Made by a program: the position numbers and the translations under genes. Under the pieces are notes generated by a model. It searched no databases. It had not been told where the DNA came from and saw nothing but the letters and a program-made list of their open reading frames with translations. Shown here piece by piece: positions 827-9,269 of a stretch of 35,493 bases of DNA. Every line of letters starts with the position of its first letter. Within the stretch, counting starts at the first letter, position 1. This DNA comes from Ktedonobacter sp. 13_1_20CM_4_53_11 (GTDB lineage Bacteria > Chloroflexota > Ktedonobacteria > Ktedonobacterales > Ktedonobacteraceae). The stretch covers positions 1-35,493 of the forward strand of contig MNIY01000081.1 in assembly GCA_001919995.1 (NCBI GenBank), written 5' to 3'.

Positions 827-1393
827 ATGGTCGGCTCAATGAGTATCGTTGATATTCTCTTTCTGGTGACGGTCATCCTGCTCGTCTTCAGCGGTTTCAG
901 GAATGGAGCAGTGATTAGCTTGTTCTCCTTGCTCAGTATCCCAATAGGATTTTTTGTAGCGTCCCACTATGGACCAGGTTTCACAGCTATGCTCGCGGCG
1001 AGCGGCTTGTCGGCTACTCCTCTCATTTCATACGTCGTCTTGTTTTTCGGGACCGCACTTGTCCTCCACATTCTCGGCTCCTCCGTGCGTAATATAACGA
1101 AAGGCATTCCATTGCTTGGCCCGGTGGATACCTTGCTCGGCGGGGCAATCGGTTTTGTCGAGGCATGGGTGTTATGGTTGGTGTTTCTCATCATTCTCGG
1201 TAATTTCCTGCATGGTATTCAGTCTAGCCTCTTGCCCACGGCAAGCATTGCTCATGGCCTCAACCTCCAGGTCGAGCAGTATAAAAGTTGGCATGATTTT
1301 TACAATCAAGCCATCACCAACAGCCTGTTTGCAAAGGTGAATGCCTTCTTTGTCAGTCAGTTGCCGGCATTGCCACAGCCACCCAGGTCCTAA
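827..1393 (+). CDS. CvpA family membrane protein
   Basis: The product is 188 residues, close to the usual length for CvpA/colicin V production-type proteins. It has four hydrophobic segments (about residues 5-25, 28-48, 62-82 and 104-128). The N-terminal pattern 'IVDILFLVTVILLVFSGFRNGAVISLFSLLS' has the family's Gly-Phe-Arg-x-Gly turn after the first helix (long peptide split here only for description). CvpA proteins are inner-membrane proteins linked to envelope homeostasis and, in some bacteria, colicin V export or purF regulation; the exact role here is unknown. A GGAGG site sits about 10 nt before the ATG at 827. A second in-frame ATG at 839 is possible. It lies upstream of hflX on the same strand. 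Confidence 0.8.
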   Translation: MVGSMSIVDILFLVTVILLVFSGFRNGAVISLFSLLSIPIGFFVASHYGPGFTAMLAASGLSATPLISYVVLFFGTALVLHILGSSVRNITKGIPLLGPVDTLLGGAIGFVEAWVLWLVFLIILGNFLHGIQSSLLPTASIAHGLNLQVEQYKSWHDFYNQAITNSLFAKVNAFFVSQLPALPQPPRS

Positions 1394-1571
1394 AAGTAAA
1401 GCTTGCTTTATGAGTTGTGGATGCATACAATAACAGTAGCGTTACCAGAAAAATCAATAAAGGCGGAGGTACATACAAACGACAAAGCAAGATCGTACAA
1501 TCGAGACAGGTGCTCACGGTAGACATGAACATGCCTACCTCGTCGCAGTAGAGAGCGACGAACAAGATAGT

Positions 1572-2801
1572 TTGTGGAGCGTTGAAGATTCCCTCAGTGA
1601 ATTGAAAGCATTAGCAAGTACAGCGGGCGCGGATGTCGTCGGCACGATGATTCAACGGCTGCATCATCCCGACGTAGCGACCTACATTGGCAAGGGCCGG
1701 GCGCAAGAACTGGGTGACCTGGAGAAGCAATTGGGGTTTGACCTGGTAATCTTCGATGACGAGTTATCACCTTCGCAGCAGCGTAACCTGGAGAAAATGC
1801 TTAACGCGCGTGTCATCGATCGGACGGCCTTGATATTGGACATTTTTGCGCAGCATGCCCGGACTCGTGAAGGGCGGTTGCAGGTTGAACTGGCCCAATT
1901 AGAATATCGCCTGCCCCGCCTGACTGGCCGAGGCGTAGCGTTTTCCCAGCAAGCGGGAGGTACGCGCAGTGCAGGTGCGGCAGGCGTAGGAGGAGCGATA
2001 GGCGTGCGCGGCCCCGGTGAAACAAAGCTGGAAATGGATCGCCGCCGCATTCGCAGCCGTATCGCTGACTTGCGCGAGGACATTGAAAACGTCCGTGAGC
2101 AGCGATCGCTTCATCGTCAGCAGCGCGCCGCCCAGGCTATTCCCGTCGTGGCTATCGTTGGCTATACCAATGCAGGTAAATCGACCCTTTTTAATGCTCT
2201 CACCGAGTCAGAAGTAATCGCAGAGAACAAGCTCTTTGCCACCCTCGACCCCATTACCCGCCACCAGATGTTACCGGGCAACCAGGAGGTGTTGTACACC
2301 GACACCGTTGGTTTTATCCAGAAATTGCCTACTAAGTTGATCGCGGCATTTCGCGCCACGCTTGAAGAGGTTATCGATGCCGACCTGCTCCTGGAGGTAG
2401 TAGATGCGAGCCATGAAAATGCTATCGAGCAGAGCGAGACGGTCAACGAAGTATTGCATGATCTTCAGATCGGCGAGAAGCCACGTGTCACGGCATTGAA
2501 TAAAATAGACCTGCTGGATGAACCGTCGGAATTAGACCTCAGCCTCTATCCCAACGCTGTACCCGTCTCTGCTTTGAAACACGTTGGCCTGGGCGCGCTG
2601 CGTGAGAAGATCGCCCAGGTGCTGGCAGATAGTATGGAGATGGTGCAGGTGACGATCCCGTACGAGAAAAGTGAGCTGGTAGAGCTCTTTCATCGTAGGG
2701 GACGCGTAGATCTTGAAGAGCACAGGGCGGAAGGTACGTTTCTGACTGGCCGCATTCCCCGTACGCTCGAAGGCTATTACGCTCCATATCTTGAGTTTTG
2801 A
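1572..2801 (+). CDS. hflX: GTPase HflX (probable start lies upstream at a non-AUG codon)
   Basis: HflX is a ribosome-associated GTPase that splits stalled ribosomes. From the TTG at 1572 the frame encodes 409 residues. G1 is GYTNAGKST near residue 197, G3 is DTVGF, G4 is NKIDLL, and the glycine-rich loop RGPGETKLE that marks HflX is present before G1. The N-terminal HflX domain includes ALASTAGADVVG and ATYIGKGRAQEL. The frame stays open upstream to a stop at 1458-1460, and the extra codons read HAYLVAVESDEQDS, which fits the beta-strand at the start of HflX proteins. So translation probably starts before 1572, although no in-frame ATG, GTG or TTG exists there. A strong GGAGG at 1465-1469 is correctly spaced for an ACG at 1479 or, less well, an ATA at 1473. 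Confidence 0.93.
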   Translation: MWSVEDSLSELKALASTAGADVVGTMIQRLHHPDVATYIGKGRAQELGDLEKQLGFDLVIFDDELSPSQQRNLEKMLNARVIDRTALILDIFAQHARTREGRLQVELAQLEYRLPRLTGRGVAFSQQAGGTRSAGAAGVGGAIGVRGPGETKLEMDRRRIRSRIADLREDIENVREQRSLHRQQRAAQAIPVVAIVGYTNAGKSTLFNALTESEVIAENKLFATLDPITRHQMLPGNQEVLYTDTVGFIQKLPTKLIAAFRATLEEVIDADLLLEVVDASHENAIEQSETVNEVLHDLQIGEKPRVTALNKIDLLDEPSELDLSLYPNAVPVSALKHVGLGALREKIAQVLADSMEMVQVTIPYEKSELVELFHRRGRVDLEEHRAEGTFLTGRIPRTLEGYYAPYLEF

Positions 2802-2808
2802 AGACGAA

Positions 2809-2859
2809 CAGGTTAAAGCGGCTGCCCCTGGTTTCGCCAGGGGCAGCCGCTTTAACCTG
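2809..2859. terminator. Perfect 23-bp hairpin after hflX
   Basis: Arms 2809-2831 and 2837-2859 are perfect inverted complements of 23 nt around a 5-nt loop (TTTCG). The inner half is GC-rich. It begins 8 bp after the hflX stop. No T-run follows on the plus strand, so it may be a bidirectional or Rho-assisted terminator, an mRNA-stabilising structure or a REP-like element rather than a classic intrinsic terminator. Confidence 0.7.
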
Positions 2860-2962
2860 TGCTTCCTATGATACTTGTGTAGCCACACGGGATATGGTAT
2901 CCTCGGTAGAGTTAGTTAACCTGACCTCATCTATCTACTATCAGAGAAAGCAGCCACCGATA

Positions 2963-4699
2963 ATGTCAGAACGAAGGCAACAGAGTTGGTACGTGCCCTT
3001 GCGCGTCCGTTTTCGCTCTCCCGCTGAGCAGGCCCAATGGGAACGTGAACACATCCCGCAGCCTACTCTTGGAGACAGTCACTCGCTATCACTAACGGGT
3101 GCGGATGTCCCTTTAGAAGTGGATATCGCTGCGCAGCGACGGACCCGGCAAATCAAAGAATTATTACGTCTTAGCAACATTATGCGCACAGGCCTGGGCT
3201 TAAGCGAGGTCCTCCAACAGATCGTAGCCTCCACCAGTGCTTGTACGGGTTTTCGCATCCTCGTCGTTCACCTGATCGAAGAAGGAAGCGATTTGCTATC
3301 TCCATACGCCTTCGCGGGGATGTCAGAAGAGAACATCAATGTTTTACGAGCGGTCCGTCGACCGGTTGAACAGGTGCTCCGTCTAATGCGGCCGGAGTTT
3401 CGTATCAGTCAAAGCTATTTTATTTCGCACGAATATGTTGAGGACATCTCGGATATCGTGTCGGTCATCAATAAATCGGTGGATGACTATCAGCCTGGCG
3501 GATGGCATCCCGACGATGCCTTAATTGTGCCCCTCTTTAGCCCCCGTCAAAAGAAGCTCTTAGGTTTCCTCTCGCTGGATGATCCAGAGGACAGCAAAAT
3601 TCCCACGCTGGAAAGCATCGAGGTGGCCGAATTATTTGCTAACCAGGCGGCTATAGCGATTGACAATGTGCGCATCTTCCAGGAAAATGAGGCCGAATCA
3701 CAGGTGCTGGATAAGGCGATCGCCGCCTTGTTGAACGATGTTGAGCAGATTCAACGTGGCGATCTGCGCGTACGCATCCATTCTAGCCATGAGAAATTGC
3801 AGCCCTTAGGTGAGGCTATCAACCAGATGGTGGAAGAGTTCAGCGGCATCCTGGGCAACGTGCAGATGGTAACGCATGCGGTAGATAAACATGCACGCGA
3901 TGTCCAGCGTAGCTCTGACCTGCTGGTACGGGATGCCAGCCAGCAAGATTTGCAGGTCCAGCACATTTCGCATGCCATCGATGAAATCGCCGAAACCATG
4001 ACGAGACTGTCGAGCAGCGCTTCGGAATTGTCGCGGGTTGTCCTCGAGGCCGTAGATGTCACGCTTGATGGGCAGAGTGCCGTTGACCGTGCGGTTGAGG
4101 GCATGAGCCAGGTGCGTGAAGCATCGGCTCTCTCCGCGCGTATCATGAAACGGCTGGGCGAGAGTGGTCAAGAAATCAACGAGACGATACTGGCTATCAC
4201 CGATCTGACGACGCGTATGAATCTAGTAGCACTCAATGCCGCGATAGAGGCGACACGAGCGGGTGAGCAAGGGCATGGTTTTGTGGTCATCGCGCAGGAA
4301 ATACGAACGCTCGCAGTGAATAGCGCGGAGGCGGCTAAGAAAGTGGCCTCCCACATACGGGCAATTCAACGTGAGACCACCGCAATTTCACATAGCGTCG
4401 AACAGAATACTCTTGAAGCGGTGAAGCAGACAGAGCTGGTCACGCAAACGGGGGTAGCCTTCGATGCAATCAGTGTCGTCACCGAACAGATGGCTGGCCT
4501 GGTACAGGGCATCTGTGCCGCCACAGATAATCAAGAGCAGGGATCGCAACAGGTTGTCAGCGCCGTTGAACAGATCGCGCGTATGACCAGCGAAATTACG
4601 CTGCACATGCGTCATATGCAGCAATCTTTATCACAGCTGGTAGAGTTGACCAACTCGCTTCGATCGCGCATGGCCGTGTTCAGGATCGCAGAACGATAA
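2963..4699 (+). CDS. Soluble methyl-accepting-type signalling protein (GAF, HAMP-like, MCP domains)
   Basis: From the ATG at 2963 the product has 578 residues and no transmembrane segment. Residues about 65-238 look like a GAF sensor domain, ending in ELFANQAAIAIDNVRIFQ. Residues about 245-300 resemble a HAMP-like linker (IQRGDLRVRI, LGEAINQMVEEF). Residues about 310-560 are a coiled-coil MCP signalling domain, with the conserved tip MNLVALNAAIEATRAGEQG near 419-437. It should signal from the cytoplasm to a CheA-type kinase, but no che gene is visible here. The frame is open back to 2798, and an ATG at 2894 is also possible, but the upstream part crosses the 23-bp hairpin. I therefore prefer 2963, although its ribosome site is weak. 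Confidence 0.85.
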   Translation: MSERRQQSWYVPLRVRFRSPAEQAQWEREHIPQPTLGDSHSLSLTGADVPLEVDIAAQRRTRQIKELLRLSNIMRTGLGLSEVLQQIVASTSACTGFRILVVHLIEEGSDLLSPYAFAGMSEENINVLRAVRRPVEQVLRLMRPEFRISQSYFISHEYVEDISDIVSVINKSVDDYQPGGWHPDDALIVPLFSPRQKKLLGFLSLDDPEDSKIPTLESIEVAELFANQAAIAIDNVRIFQENEAESQVLDKAIAALLNDVEQIQRGDLRVRIHSSHEKLQPLGEAINQMVEEFSGILGNVQMVTHAVDKHARDVQRSSDLLVRDASQQDLQVQHISHAIDEIAETMTRLSSSASELSRVVLEAVDVTLDGQSAVDRAVEGMSQVREASALSARIMKRLGESGQEINETILAITDLTTRMNLVALNAAIEATRAGEQGHGFVVIAQEIRTLAVNSAEAAKKVASHIRAIQRETTAISHSVEQNTLEAVKQTELVTQTGVAFDAISVVTEQMAGLVQGICAATDNQEQGSQQVVSAVEQIARMTSEITLHMRHMQQSLSQLVELTNSLRSRMAVFRIAER

Positions 4700-4714: not shown

Positions 4715-5530
4715 CTAATTCCTGTACCAGAACTGATCCCAAGCCTGCCAAAACGTATCGGCCGTAGATACCACTGTCCGTGGACCCTCGAAACGGACGC
4801 CGGTGCGTCCCATGAAGTCACTGGCATGGTCAGGCGTTGCCAGATCCACTTTGAATGTCACTGGCGCGGTCGTTTTGTAGGGTTTTGGCCAGTTGCGCAA
4901 ACTCAGCGATTGGGCCACGCGCATCTCGATCAATGAACAGGCATCTTTAGGAGCCATATTGCGCGATGAGAAGCGGCCAAGACCCGTTTTCACCGGCGCT
5001 GTTGTCACCTCGTCCCCCAGCAGCGCGGTCACCTCGCGGCAGGTTGCTTCGTCACCAGAGACAAATACCGCGGGGACATCCCAACATCCGGCGATGGCCG
5101 CCAGGATACCGCTCTCACCGACCAGCGTATCATTGATCCACGCGTTGTACCAGGCTTCCGAGGAAACAGTGTGGCAGAGTACGCCATCGGGCGTACCCGC
5201 CATGGCGTGTGCTCCCACGAATAAGATGGCATCACATCCCTGCTCGAAAGGTGTGATGTAGCGTGCCCAGGGATAGCCGAAAATATATTGCGCGCCAGCT
5301 TCCAGGCGCTCAGGAATAAAACTTTTAAAACTATAGGCGCCGCCCGCACCATGACAATCCACCACTTCGATCCTGCTTGCTCCGGCGGCGCGGGCACCGC
5401 GAACCGCTGCATTCATCTCATCCGTATAGAGCTTGCGGCACTCTTCGTAGAGCGCCTTTCCGCCGGTTACCTGGTCCCAGTGTTCTATACAAGAAATCCC
5501 TTCCATATCGCAGAAAATAACAACGTACAT
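4715..5530 (-). CDS. DppA-type D-aminopeptidase (M55 family)
   Basis: The product is 271 residues, close to the 274 of Bacillus subtilis DppA. The zinc-site residues known for the family all appear in order: Asp8 and Glu10 in CDMEG, His60 in VDCHG, His108 in GAHAM and Glu139 in VGESG. DppA is a self-compartmentalising, zinc-dependent peptidase that releases D-amino acids from short peptides such as D-Ala-D-Ala, so a role in recycling cell-wall peptides is plausible. A strong AGGGGGT ribosome site precedes the ATG at 5530. No dipeptide transporter genes adjoin it, unlike the B. subtilis dpp operon. It converges with the MCP-like gene, with 15 bp between them. Confidence 0.9.
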   Translation of the reverse strand: MYVVIFCDMEGISCIEHWDQVTGGKALYEECRKLYTDEMNAAVRGARAAGASRIEVVDCHGAGGAYSFKSFIPERLEAGAQYIFGYPWARYITPFEQGCDAILFVGAHAMAGTPDGVLCHTVSSEAWYNAWINDTLVGESGILAAIAGCWDVPAVFVSGDEATCREVTALLGDEVTTAPVKTGLGRFSSRNMAPKDACSLIEMRVAQSLSLRNWPKPYKTTAPVTFKVDLATPDHASDFMGRTGVRFEGPRTVVSTADTFWQAWDQFWYRN

Positions 5531-5687
5531 GCCTACCCCCTGAAATTACACGTCTTTTTATCTTTTCCTTCTCTATCTTTATAACGGGCAGGTTATCATG
5601 AAGATTACATCCAGTTGACAAAAAAGGTGGGTGTTATCTTAAATTTGTAGGAATGGCTGTTGGATGATCTACATGAGTGGCGGAACA

Positions 5688-6185
5688 TCAGCGTTTCCGC
5701 TGCAGACGTTGAACTTGCCTTTTCTCCAGGCGCTCTAGCTTCTGTTGCCGTTTCGGCGACAATTCATATTCGCGGTACAGGCGCTTGCCCACTTTCCAAC
5801 CAATGTAGCCGCCGAGCACCGTACCGATGACCGTAAAAAGAGCGGTGGCGATGCGTATGTTGGTTGCGGGATCGACATGAACCAGGAAAACGATTAAATT
5901 AGCGGTCACCCGTCCAAAGCCAATTATGCCGAGCAAGAGGCTGATCAAGACCCCAACCACGATACCCATGCAGCAGCCAAGTGGCCCTCCATTGGTCTCA
6001 TACTGCGCCATCGTCGGCAAGACTATTTCAGGTTCAGTTGCTGCTGCCTCAGCCTCAGCTGCACCAGAGGGTGGCGCTTCTTCGGCGAGTGGAGGGAGCT
6101 CATTCACTTCGTCCATGTATTCTTCTGCCTGCGCTTCGTTCTCATCCTCCGGATTCGGACGCGGCATGTAAGGTGGTACTGGCAT
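5688..6185 (-). CDS. Hypothetical membrane protein with acidic N-terminus and basic tail
   Basis: I do not recognise a family. The 165-residue product has a Pro/Glu/Ala-rich acidic N-terminus (about 1-65), then two hydrophobic segments: GIVVGVLISLLLGIIGF near 75-92 and IATALFTVIGTVLGGYIGW near 110-130. A very basic coiled tail follows (KRQQKLERLEKRQVQRL, about 143-160). The likely topology has both tails in the cytoplasm. It lies 82 bp downstream of upp on the same strand and could be co-transcribed with it. The ribosome site is weak. Confidence 0.65.
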   Translation of the reverse strand: MPVPPYMPRPNPEDENEAQAEEYMDEVNELPPLAEEAPPSGAAEAEAAATEPEIVLPTMAQYETNGGPLGCCMGIVVGVLISLLLGIIGFGRVTANLIVFLVHVDPATNIRIATALFTVIGTVLGGYIGWKVGKRLYREYELSPKRQQKLERLEKRQVQRLQRKR

Positions 6186-7029: not shown

Positions 7030-7104
7030 GAGGTGACTATACTAGTCGAATCTCAATGGTTGTTCCTCAGGTAAAAGACATTCGAGTGGGTGTTTTTCTT
7101 CGTA

Positions 7105-7480
7105 TTACAACCTTCCGGAGCTTCAAGCCCCTGTCTTTCAAGCTGGGGATGAAAGTGGCGTTCCTTATTTGGAGCTTGGGTGGGGTTCATTTCCACTTTT
7201 GCTCCCCCCAAAAAGAATAGGACAGGAGTCTTCAGGCACCTGAAGAAAAGAAGAGTGTTTCCTGGGTTCGCGGGGAAATCGTTCGCCGCGGCAAAAGCAC
7301 TCACGTCTTCCCGAAGTGCCATGCCAGACACCAGTTGCTTTTGAGCGAACGCTCGCTTGTGTGTATTAAACGGACTCCTGCCGTGGGACGAGCATGCCGC
7401 GTCATTCGTCGCGTGCCGCAGGCTCCGGGAGTCTGAGGGAGTCGTCACAACCTTAAAACCCAGGGGCTGTTATTGGAGGA
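7105..7480 (-). mobile_element. Decayed IS200/IS605-like relic related to the iscB element
   Basis: Read on the minus strand, 7107-7165 contains an end hairpin (TCATCCCC...GAAAGAC.GGGGCTT) that aligns base for base with the right end of the iscB element (TCCTCCCCC...GAAAGACGGGGGCTT at 9106-9132). The DNA just before it encodes the same degenerate peptide in all related ends (compare NPTQAPNKERHF here with NPPDKERPFLPRPERRG at the iscB end). The body to about 7480 holds several inverted repeats (CTTCAGG..CCTGAAG at 7231-7246, GACTCC..GGAGTC around 7371-7432) but no intact gene. The left boundary is not clear. It abuts the iscB element directly, so the region is a composite of nested or adjacent insertions. 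Confidence 0.6.
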
Positions 7481-7483
7481 GTC

Positions 7484-7745
7484 ATGAACCCCTGCATCGA
7501 ATGCGGGGGCTTGCAGCAAGGCTCATCGTCTCGCTACAAGCCCGGAACATGACCAGACTCAGGCTTGAAACAGAGCCTACGTTAGGAGCGAATCCATAGG
7601 CACGTCCGGGTGCGACGCCAGCCCGGACCGCTGCGGCAATCGATTAAACAGGGCTAGCGGGTTACCCCAGTGTCGTTTGCGTCAAACCGCTCCATAACCT
7701 TGTCGAGGCGAACATCACCCGGCGCTTGCCGGAGGCTCGCAAGAG
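7484..7745 (+). ncRNA. Omega RNA (HEARO-type) guiding IscB
   Basis: IscB proteins work with an RNA encoded just upstream of the gene; this RNA class was first described as HEARO. The 277-bp leader between the element's left end and the iscB ATG is non-coding and highly structured. Stems seen: 7489-7497/7501-7509 (end hairpin), AGGCT/AGCCT at 7561-7565/7574-7578, GTCCGGG/CCCGGAC at 7604-7610/7622-7628, AGCGG/CCGCT at 7656-7660/7687-7691, and CCGGC/GCCGG at 7719-7723/7728-7732. GGGTTACCCC sits inside the AGCGG/CCGCT stem and could form the pseudoknot expected of this class. In this family the guide is the sequence immediately 5' of the element, here about 7465-7483. The 3' boundary is estimated. 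Confidence 0.72.
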
Positions 7746-7761
7746 CAAAGAGGACCCCATC

Positions 7762-9090
7762 ATGTCAAAAGTGTTGCTCCTGGATATGACCAAACAGCCC
7801 TTAGACCCAGTGCATCCGGGCCGAGCACGCCTGTTGCTCAAAGAGGGCAAGGCCGCCGTGTATCGCAGGTACCCCTTTACCCTCATCCTGAAGACGCAAG
7901 TGGACTCCCCTGCGGTGTCTGCCCTGCGGCTCAAACTTGATCCAGGGGCGAAGACGAGCGGGCTGGCCCTGGTCGATGACGCGAGCGGGGAAGTGGTGTG
8001 GGCGGCAGAACTCGGCCATCGGGGAGCCAGCATCAAGAAGCGCATAGATGCCCGGCGTGGCGTGCGGCGCAAGAGACGCTCACGTTTCACGCGGTACCGC
8101 AAGCCGCGCTTCCACAACCGCAAGAGTTCCAGGAGAAAAGGGCGGCTTCCGCCCTCGCTGGAAAGCCGGGTTGCCAACATGCTGACCTGGGTAGGGCGCC
8201 TGAGGCGTTTGTGCCCCATTGAGGTGATCAGCATGGAACTGGTTAAGTTCGATATGCAGGCCATGCAAAACCCGGAGATCACTGGCGCCCAGTACCAACA
8301 AGGGGAACGCATGGGCTATGAGACGCGGGAATACCTGCTCGCAAAGTGGGGGCGGCGATGCGCCTACTGCGGGGCTGAGGATGTTCCCCTGGAGATTGAG
8401 CACATCCTCTGCCGCGCACGAGGCGGCACGCATCGCGTGAGCAACCTCACCCTGGCCTGCGAGCCGTGTAACGTCAAGAAGGGCACGCAACTCATCGAGG
8501 ATTTCCTGAACAAGAAGCCAGACGTGTTGGCACGCATCCTGGCCCAGGCGAAAACGCCGCTCAAAGCTGCTGCCGCCGTCAATGCGACCCGCTGGCACCT
8601 CTTTGAACGGCTGAAGGCGACCGGCTTACCCCTGGAGACCAGCAGTGGCGGTTTGACCAAATACAACCGGGCGAAGCGGCATCTGCCGAAAACGCATTGG
8701 CTCGATGCAGCGTGTGTCGGCCAGAGCACCCCACAGCCTCTGGAAACGAGCCAGGTGGTTCCTTTGCTGATCGAAGCCACCGGTCATGGCAACCGGCAAA
8801 TGTGCGGCGTCGATGAGCATGGCTTTCCCATCCGCCATAGGCAGCGGAAGAAGGTGCATTTCGGCTACCAGACGGGTGACCTGGTGCGGGCGGTGGTTCC
8901 CACGGGGGCGAGGGCGGGGACGCATGTTGGGCGCGTGCTGGCACGAGCCAGCGGCTCTTTCGATTTGAGGACCAAAGCTGGACGCCAGGCCGGGATCAGT
9001 TATCGGTATTGCCGTCCCATCCATCGCAACGATGGCTATCGTTACCAGCAAGGAGGGCGGCATGCAGTCCCCGCCACCCAATCCACCTGA
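7762..9090 (+). CDS. iscB: IscB RNA-guided nuclease (RuvC + HNH), Cas9-ancestor family
   Basis: IscB is an omega-RNA-guided DNA endonuclease ancestral to Cas9. The product is 442 residues, within the usual 400-500. Order of parts: PLMP-like N-terminus (VLLLDMTKQPLDP, RARLLLKEGKAAV); RuvC-I with Asp60 in LKLDPGAKTSG; Arg-rich bridge helix about 92-126; RuvC-II with Glu159 in ISMELVKFD; HNH domain about 195-242 with Cys200/Cys203, Cys233/Cys236, His214 in LEIEHI and Asn228; RuvC-III with His312 and Asp315 in THWLDAACV; and a C-terminal target-motif-binding domain (KKVHFGYQTGDLVRA, GTHVGRVLARASGSF). Every expected catalytic residue is present, so it is probably active. I chose ATG 7762 over the upstream in-frame start at 7726, because the family motif begins right after it and GAGGA lies 8 nt before. 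Confidence 0.95.
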   Translation: MSKVLLLDMTKQPLDPVHPGRARLLLKEGKAAVYRRYPFTLILKTQVDSPAVSALRLKLDPGAKTSGLALVDDASGEVVWAAELGHRGASIKKRIDARRGVRRKRRSRFTRYRKPRFHNRKSSRRKGRLPPSLESRVANMLTWVGRLRRLCPIEVISMELVKFDMQAMQNPEITGAQYQQGERMGYETREYLLAKWGRRCAYCGAEDVPLEIEHILCRARGGTHRVSNLTLACEPCNVKKGTQLIEDFLNKKPDVLARILAQAKTPLKAAAAVNATRWHLFERLKATGLPLETSSGGLTKYNRAKRHLPKTHWLDAACVGQSTPQPLETSQVVPLLIEATGHGNRQMCGVDEHGFPIRHRQRKKVHFGYQTGDLVRAVVPTGARAGTHVGRVLARASGSFDLRTKAGRQAGISYRYCRPIHRNDGYRYQQGGRHAVPATQST

Positions 9091-9269
9091 CAAGGAAAGG
9101 CCATTCCTCCCCCGCCCGGAAAGACGGGGGCTTCCTGGCTCGGTTTCTGTGAAAGATCAAAAGGGGCGAAAAGATCAGCAGGAAGTAGCAGGCATATCAC
9201 AACAAGAGATGGCAGGTGAAGGTCCAGGGGCTTTTAACCGCAAAGGTTCATTGACAGGCGAGAGGTACC

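Follow-up and report, generated by a model that had tools for sequence, protein, structure and literature searches.

The window, a stretch of 35,493 nucleotides from a contig of Ktedonobacter sp. 13_1_20CM_4_53_11 (MNIY01000081.1), contains an iscB gene preceded by a HEARO (omega) RNA within a 1668-bp element, and a short insertion with a TnpB-type right end immediately upstream of that element (Table 1). IscB is a small RNA-guided DNA cutter of the type ancestral to Cas9. The other scanned ORFs of the window (1572–34083) are ordinary genes of the chromosome, with matches to HflX, a chemotaxis receptor, an M55 peptidase, uracil phosphoribosyltransferase, an ACT-domain protein, a phosphoesterase, Ser/Thr kinases, a WecG glycosyltransferase, a PfkB kinase, MurJ, an ECF-type sigma factor, PhoU, a trypsin-PDZ protease, acetate kinase, citrate synthase and DUF790.

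Table 1. Features of the iscB locus and of the insertion upstream of it (positions in the window).
Feature	Position	Strand	Basis or remark
TTAC motif, MITE left junction	7105..7108	+	Alignment of ends; empty site of G002 reads TTGC
TnpB-type MITE, 340 bp	7109..7448	+	Right end GGGAGTCGTCAC; neither tnpA nor tnpB recognised; G001 and G002 lack it
Host spacer, 32 nt	7449..7480	+	Between MITE right end and IscB left end; putative TnpB guide
Omega RNA guide (host flank, 16 nt)	7465..7480	+	Predicted from the family pattern and the boundary of the element
IscB mobile element, 1668 bp	7481..9148	+	Absent at the orthologous site of G001 and G002; scarless
Omega RNA scaffold (HEARO, RF02033)	7481..7718	+	Full-length covariance match
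iscB	7762..9090	+	442 aa, ATG start, stop included; NF040563, PF14239, HNH domains
Right-end terminal hairpin	9100..9139	-	Fold -23.8 kcal/mol, z -2.37; resembles IS200/IS605 left end
GTGA, candidate TAM and target motif of insertion	9149..9152	+	TCAC on the minus strand; present in empty sites

The identification of the protein as IscB, proposed in a first-pass annotation, was borne out by the NCBIfam guided_IscB model (NF040563), which scored 439.7 bits against a cut-off of 175. The RRXRR domain (PF14239) scored 222.6 bits against a cut-off of 25, and HNH domains were also matched. The longest frame of this ORF starts at an alternative in-frame TTG at 7726. All the nuclease residues listed in that annotation are indeed present: Asp60, Glu159, His312 and Asp315 of RuvC, His214 of HNH, and the four HNH cysteines (Cys200, Cys203, Cys233 and Cys236). 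In an alignment of 37 IscB sequences (the window protein and 36 among 120 listed homologues), Asp60, Glu159, His214, Asp315 and the four cysteines are invariant, and His312 is conserved in at least 90% of the sequences. The catalytic residues align with the equivalent positions of solved IscB chains, three of which were compared; for OgeuIscB, the published description names D61, E193, H247, H340 and D343 (PMC9640706). Three residues past the HNH histidine, the window protein has Cys217 in place of the consensus proline. The AlphaFold2 model built from the 37 sequences was poor (mean pLDDT 60.1, pTM 0.31). As judged from its sequence, the window IscB is a further representative of a well-known family, ordinary among its relatives; its activity as a nuclease is a prediction, as it was in the first-pass annotation.

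The IscB family is common in these bacteria. The same 442-aa sequence is on record for Ktedonobacter sp. 13_1_20CM_3_54_15, whose genome was assembled from a metagenome. A protein search of 101 relatives gave a match at E ≤ 0.001 in 94, many of them weak (E about 1e-8) and short of a full IscB, and four genomes (G018, G021, G022 and G024) gave at least 17 scored matches each, fragments included. The nearest genome compared (G001), which shares 72% of sampled words, contains four HEARO loci and three protein matches that are 44–61% identical to the window IscB. Beyond near kin, a contig scan named three loci of 51–53% identity, in Pseudomonas, Thiocystis and Stutzerimonas records. A literature search for IscB together with Ktedonobacter racemifer gave no match.

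One of the relatives' copies is interrupted. At this locus of G022 (L082, C1:4372000-4378100), the iscB reading frame breaks after about residue 283, where an insert contains an ORF for a group II intron reverse transcriptase-HNH protein (1389–3113, minus strand). Another ORF of this type lies at 4727–6061 (minus strand), followed, just upstream of iscB, by a match to a group II intron (RF00029, 65.8 bits); the stretch examined contains no HEARO match. Matches to iscB that break near residues 280–285 also occur in G011, in G018 and in other copies of G022.

The structured leader claimed upstream of the gene proved to be a HEARO RNA when the covariance search suggested with that claim was run. 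A cmscan of the whole window placed RF02033 there with 127.2 bits (gathering score 83, E 3e-26), over model positions 1–211 of 211, as the single Rfam match above its gathering threshold. The leader had been given as 277 bp, which presumably corresponds to 7485–7761, that is, to the HEARO RNA without its first 4 nt plus the 43 nt before the ATG. Altae-Tran and coworkers (2021) reportedly found that an RNA arising upstream of the gene guides IscB. This mode of guidance is established (PMC9755519, PMC9640706). A scan for promoters of one type, sigma-70-like, gave no sites in 7050–9250.

The extent of the element was read from the same neighbourhood in G001 and in a genus-mate, G002, both of which lack it. 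Their empty-site joint is ATTGGAGGA followed directly by GTGAA, and the filled site in the window reads ATTGGAGGA / GTCATGAACC ... CGGTTTCT / GTGAAAG, where slashes denote the junctions. Because these empty sites could be compared with the window, the element can be set at 7481–9148 with a 2-nt ambiguity (7482–9149 and 7483–9150 are equivalent placements) and without target duplication. The expectation that both transposon ends could be drawn thus held, whereas the ends first proposed, 7484 and 9151, each lie about 3 nt off those given by the empty sites, and that interval closes with host bases that belong to the GTGA motif.

The empty sites also support the earlier placing of the guide just outside the left end. 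The 16-nt left flank is identical at 15 of 16 positions to the empty site of G002 and at 14 of 16 to that of G001; counted from the target-adjacent motif (TAM), the mismatches fall at position 10 in G002 and at positions 10 and 13 in G001, all of them within the 14 TAM-proximal positions. In OgeuIscB, mismatches in these 14 positions abolished cleavage (PMC9640706). The mismatches of the window copy may represent polymorphism, the empty alleles compared being those of G001 and G002.

Four copies were checked for empty sites: that of the window, L066, L119 and L122. A left flank serving as the putative guide, with an empty site that restores the guide match and the TAM, was seen for the window copy and for L066 of G024, whose empty sites are likewise scarless with GTGA and match the guide at 16 of 16 positions in G021 and 15 of 16 in G018. 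The exception was L119, the empty allele of which reads ATAA in G001. For L122, no alignment in G001 exceeded the threshold of the script. The flanks of a further copy, L067 of G024, were found in G021 and G018 as separate diverged pieces only, with no readable empty site. Beside L066 lies a 75-bp repeat (456–530), which has upwards of 40 listed matches in G018 and G021, most of them with 87–99% identity.

The two ends were also compared across copies. A GTCA left end could be recognised in 70 of the 79 unique copies compared (the other nine were dropped), with 69 distinct 16-nt flanks, although the search pattern itself contained GTCA, so this count does not test the motif. When near-identical copies are aligned in pairs, many of the alignments, though not all, start at GTCA or within a few bases of it. 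Right boundaries were placed by pairwise alignment for 39 copies (of the other unique copies, two were excluded and 38 gave no boundary in this way); RTGR stands at the boundary in 35 of the 39 against 12% of background 10-nt windows, a count that overstates independence, as the copies are related. The candidate TAM, GTGA, is compatible with NNRR, given for OgeuIscB (PMC9640706), and does not match NWRGNA, given for an engineered OgeuIscB (PMC13180657). Empty sites in close kin allow guide, boundary and TAM to be predicted from genomes alone.

No transposase was recognised inside the element: the seven other ORFs of at least 80 aa that overlap it have no Pfam match. Having no Y1 transposase TnpA of its own and being inserted scarlessly beside a short target motif, it is classed as a passenger of the IS200/IS605 kind and not as an autonomous IS. 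Its right end, taken as the reverse complement, is similar to the left ends of IS200/IS605 elements with TnpA and TnpB in the relatives. Three of the 14 right-end matches listed in relatives are the right ends of other IscB copies; at another, L178, genes for a Y1 transposase and for TnpB follow the match directly. The right end of the window element also aligns with the MITE's left end, with a local score of 33, which none of 2000 shuffles reached (maximum 28). Most of the aligned end junctions read TTAC or TCAC; the rows of L179 and of two poorly extracted IscB ends are not aligned at the junction motif. Y1 transposases were found in nine of ten relatives searched; the one without a match, G018, nevertheless contains IscB copies. 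Because of the likeness of its right end to TnpA/TnpB left ends, the element is likely to be mobilised in trans, by the transposase of another element.

At the locus in the window, the IscB gene is intact and the HEARO RNA complete; the insertion, which is scarless, lies between a 16-nt flank and a GTGA that was there before it, and the right end of the element resembles the left ends of TnpA/TnpB elements. Very probably this is a non-autonomous element of the IS200/IS605 type that carries IscB with its omega RNA and would follow a homing cycle. Such a cycle is known from work on TnpB and IscB elements. Here, the TnpA of another element would move the IscB element as single-stranded DNA to sites beside TCAC on the minus strand, and the omega RNA would take up the left flank as its guide. 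An empty site that had re-sealed, with the guide match followed by GTGA, would be cut by IscB, and repair from the sister copy would restore the element. Its own left junction, with the guide followed by GTCA, would be spared, as the motif is missing there. The iscB gene would be antisense to the presumed polarity of the transposase, and the guide would therefore lie outside the transposase-defined right end, as it does for TnpB.

A copy that is intact in sequence could still be an inert passenger, having lost an effective match between guide and target after insertion or never having had a promoter at this site. The guide is mismatched to both known empty alleles, the promoter scan found nothing, and Cys217 stands where proline is the consensus, all of which would fit such a copy. 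However, the ORF is full, the HEARO RNA scores as a full one and every catalytic residue is kept; moreover, the mismatches could be polymorphic and the scan was limited to one promoter type. We regard inertness as possible, though clearly the less probable state. That IscB has been domesticated, with a role in the host upstream of upp (the uracil phosphoribosyltransferase gene) and without further mobility, would agree with its intergenic place between upp and the ACT-domain gene. This reading is set aside as scarcely credible because G001 and G002 lack the element at the same site; in addition, both ends are present and homologues stand at many different flanks.

A second insertion, unseen in the first-pass annotation, sits between upp and the IscB element. 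By its sequence, it is a MITE in which no gene was recognised and whose right end is of the TnpB type. Its left junction has a 6-nt ambiguity and was placed by the TTAC motif, and its left end is common to TnpA-bearing elements. Nineteen ends with its right-end sequence, GGGAGTCGTCAC, were collected, and their 16-nt flanks are all different. They are those of the window, of L067, L168, L172 and L152, and, in G021, of nine copies of the MITE and of five elements with tnpB. In all five tnpB elements of G021 examined (L216–L220), GGGAGTCGTCAC lies 34 nt past the tnpB stop, and the frame preceding it matches the TnpB C-terminal domain (PF07282). The MITE at L067 is of the same kind as that of the window, and the family is dispersed, with nine near-full-length copies among the matches listed in G021.

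The position of this MITE raises the question of where the promoter for the IscB guide comes from, and of whether two OMEGA systems may use one guide. The IscB element could be paired with the MITE, such that transcription outward from the MITE would yield the omega RNA and the spacer would serve as a TnpB-type guide at the 3' side of one scaffold and as an IscB guide at the 5' side of the other. The two insertions have the same orientation at a distance of 32 nt, and GGGAGTCGTCAC occurs exactly twice in the 264,453 bases around 70 IscB copies (both strands, up to one mismatch): 32 nt upstream of the IscB left end in the window and 22 nt upstream at L067. These two pairs, head-to-tail in both cases, belong to two genera, and the tnpB elements of G021 show the same right end past the tnpB stop. 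With even spacing, the chance of one such placement would be 70 x 32 / (2 x 264453), about 0.4%, a post hoc figure that was prompted by the window, so only L067 counts as a replicate. Yet the layout is present in just two of the 70 copies, one being the window that prompted the test; of the 69 other copies with a left end, it is found in L067 alone, and pattern scans of eight genomes and of 47 genomes of the order gave no further case. Common target preferences could cluster such elements. Among the ORFs scanned in the window, none was recognised as TnpB. The fold of 7360–7480 is no more stable than that of shuffled sequences (z 0.56), an argument against the MITE end of the window copy forming a strong structure by itself. 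We consider such a pairing rather improbable. Its most specific form, in which the 32-nt spacer would be transcribed as a shared guide, preceded by the TnpB-type scaffold and followed by the IscB omega RNA, seems slightly more doubtful still. If it were true, a single RNA could direct two unrelated nucleases to the same locus, and the MITE would supply the promoter, which an IscB guide, being external to its element, cannot contribute. Among the titles and abstract openings searched, there was no report of IscB and TnpB elements sharing a guide, which is weak evidence, as subscription papers were mostly out of reach.

The locus can be compared with known systems. With IscB/HEARO (OMEGA) systems such as OgeuIscB (7xht), HfmIscB (9k2z) and TbaIscB (9k30), it shares the RRXRR, RuvC and HNH parts and the catalytic residues of the protein, the upstream HEARO RNA, the predicted guide in the left flank and purines at positions 3 and 4 of the candidate TAM. 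The window IscB differs from them in being a short, 442-aa protein of a Ktedonobacter clade with a TAM, GTGA, predicted from genomes only. The IscB copies of G024 belong to the same family, with the same left end and, at the closest copies, GTGA; they differ in their diverged sequence (at most 69% protein identity), in their sites, and in their number, with at least 17 scored matches compared with three in G001. Finally, the terminal hairpin, the TTAC or TCAC junction motif and the scarless insertion of the window element are those of IS200/IS605 TnpA/TnpB elements and of their MITEs; unlike TnpA/TnpB elements, it has neither tnpA nor tnpB, and its nuclease gene runs antisense to the presumed polarity of the transposase.
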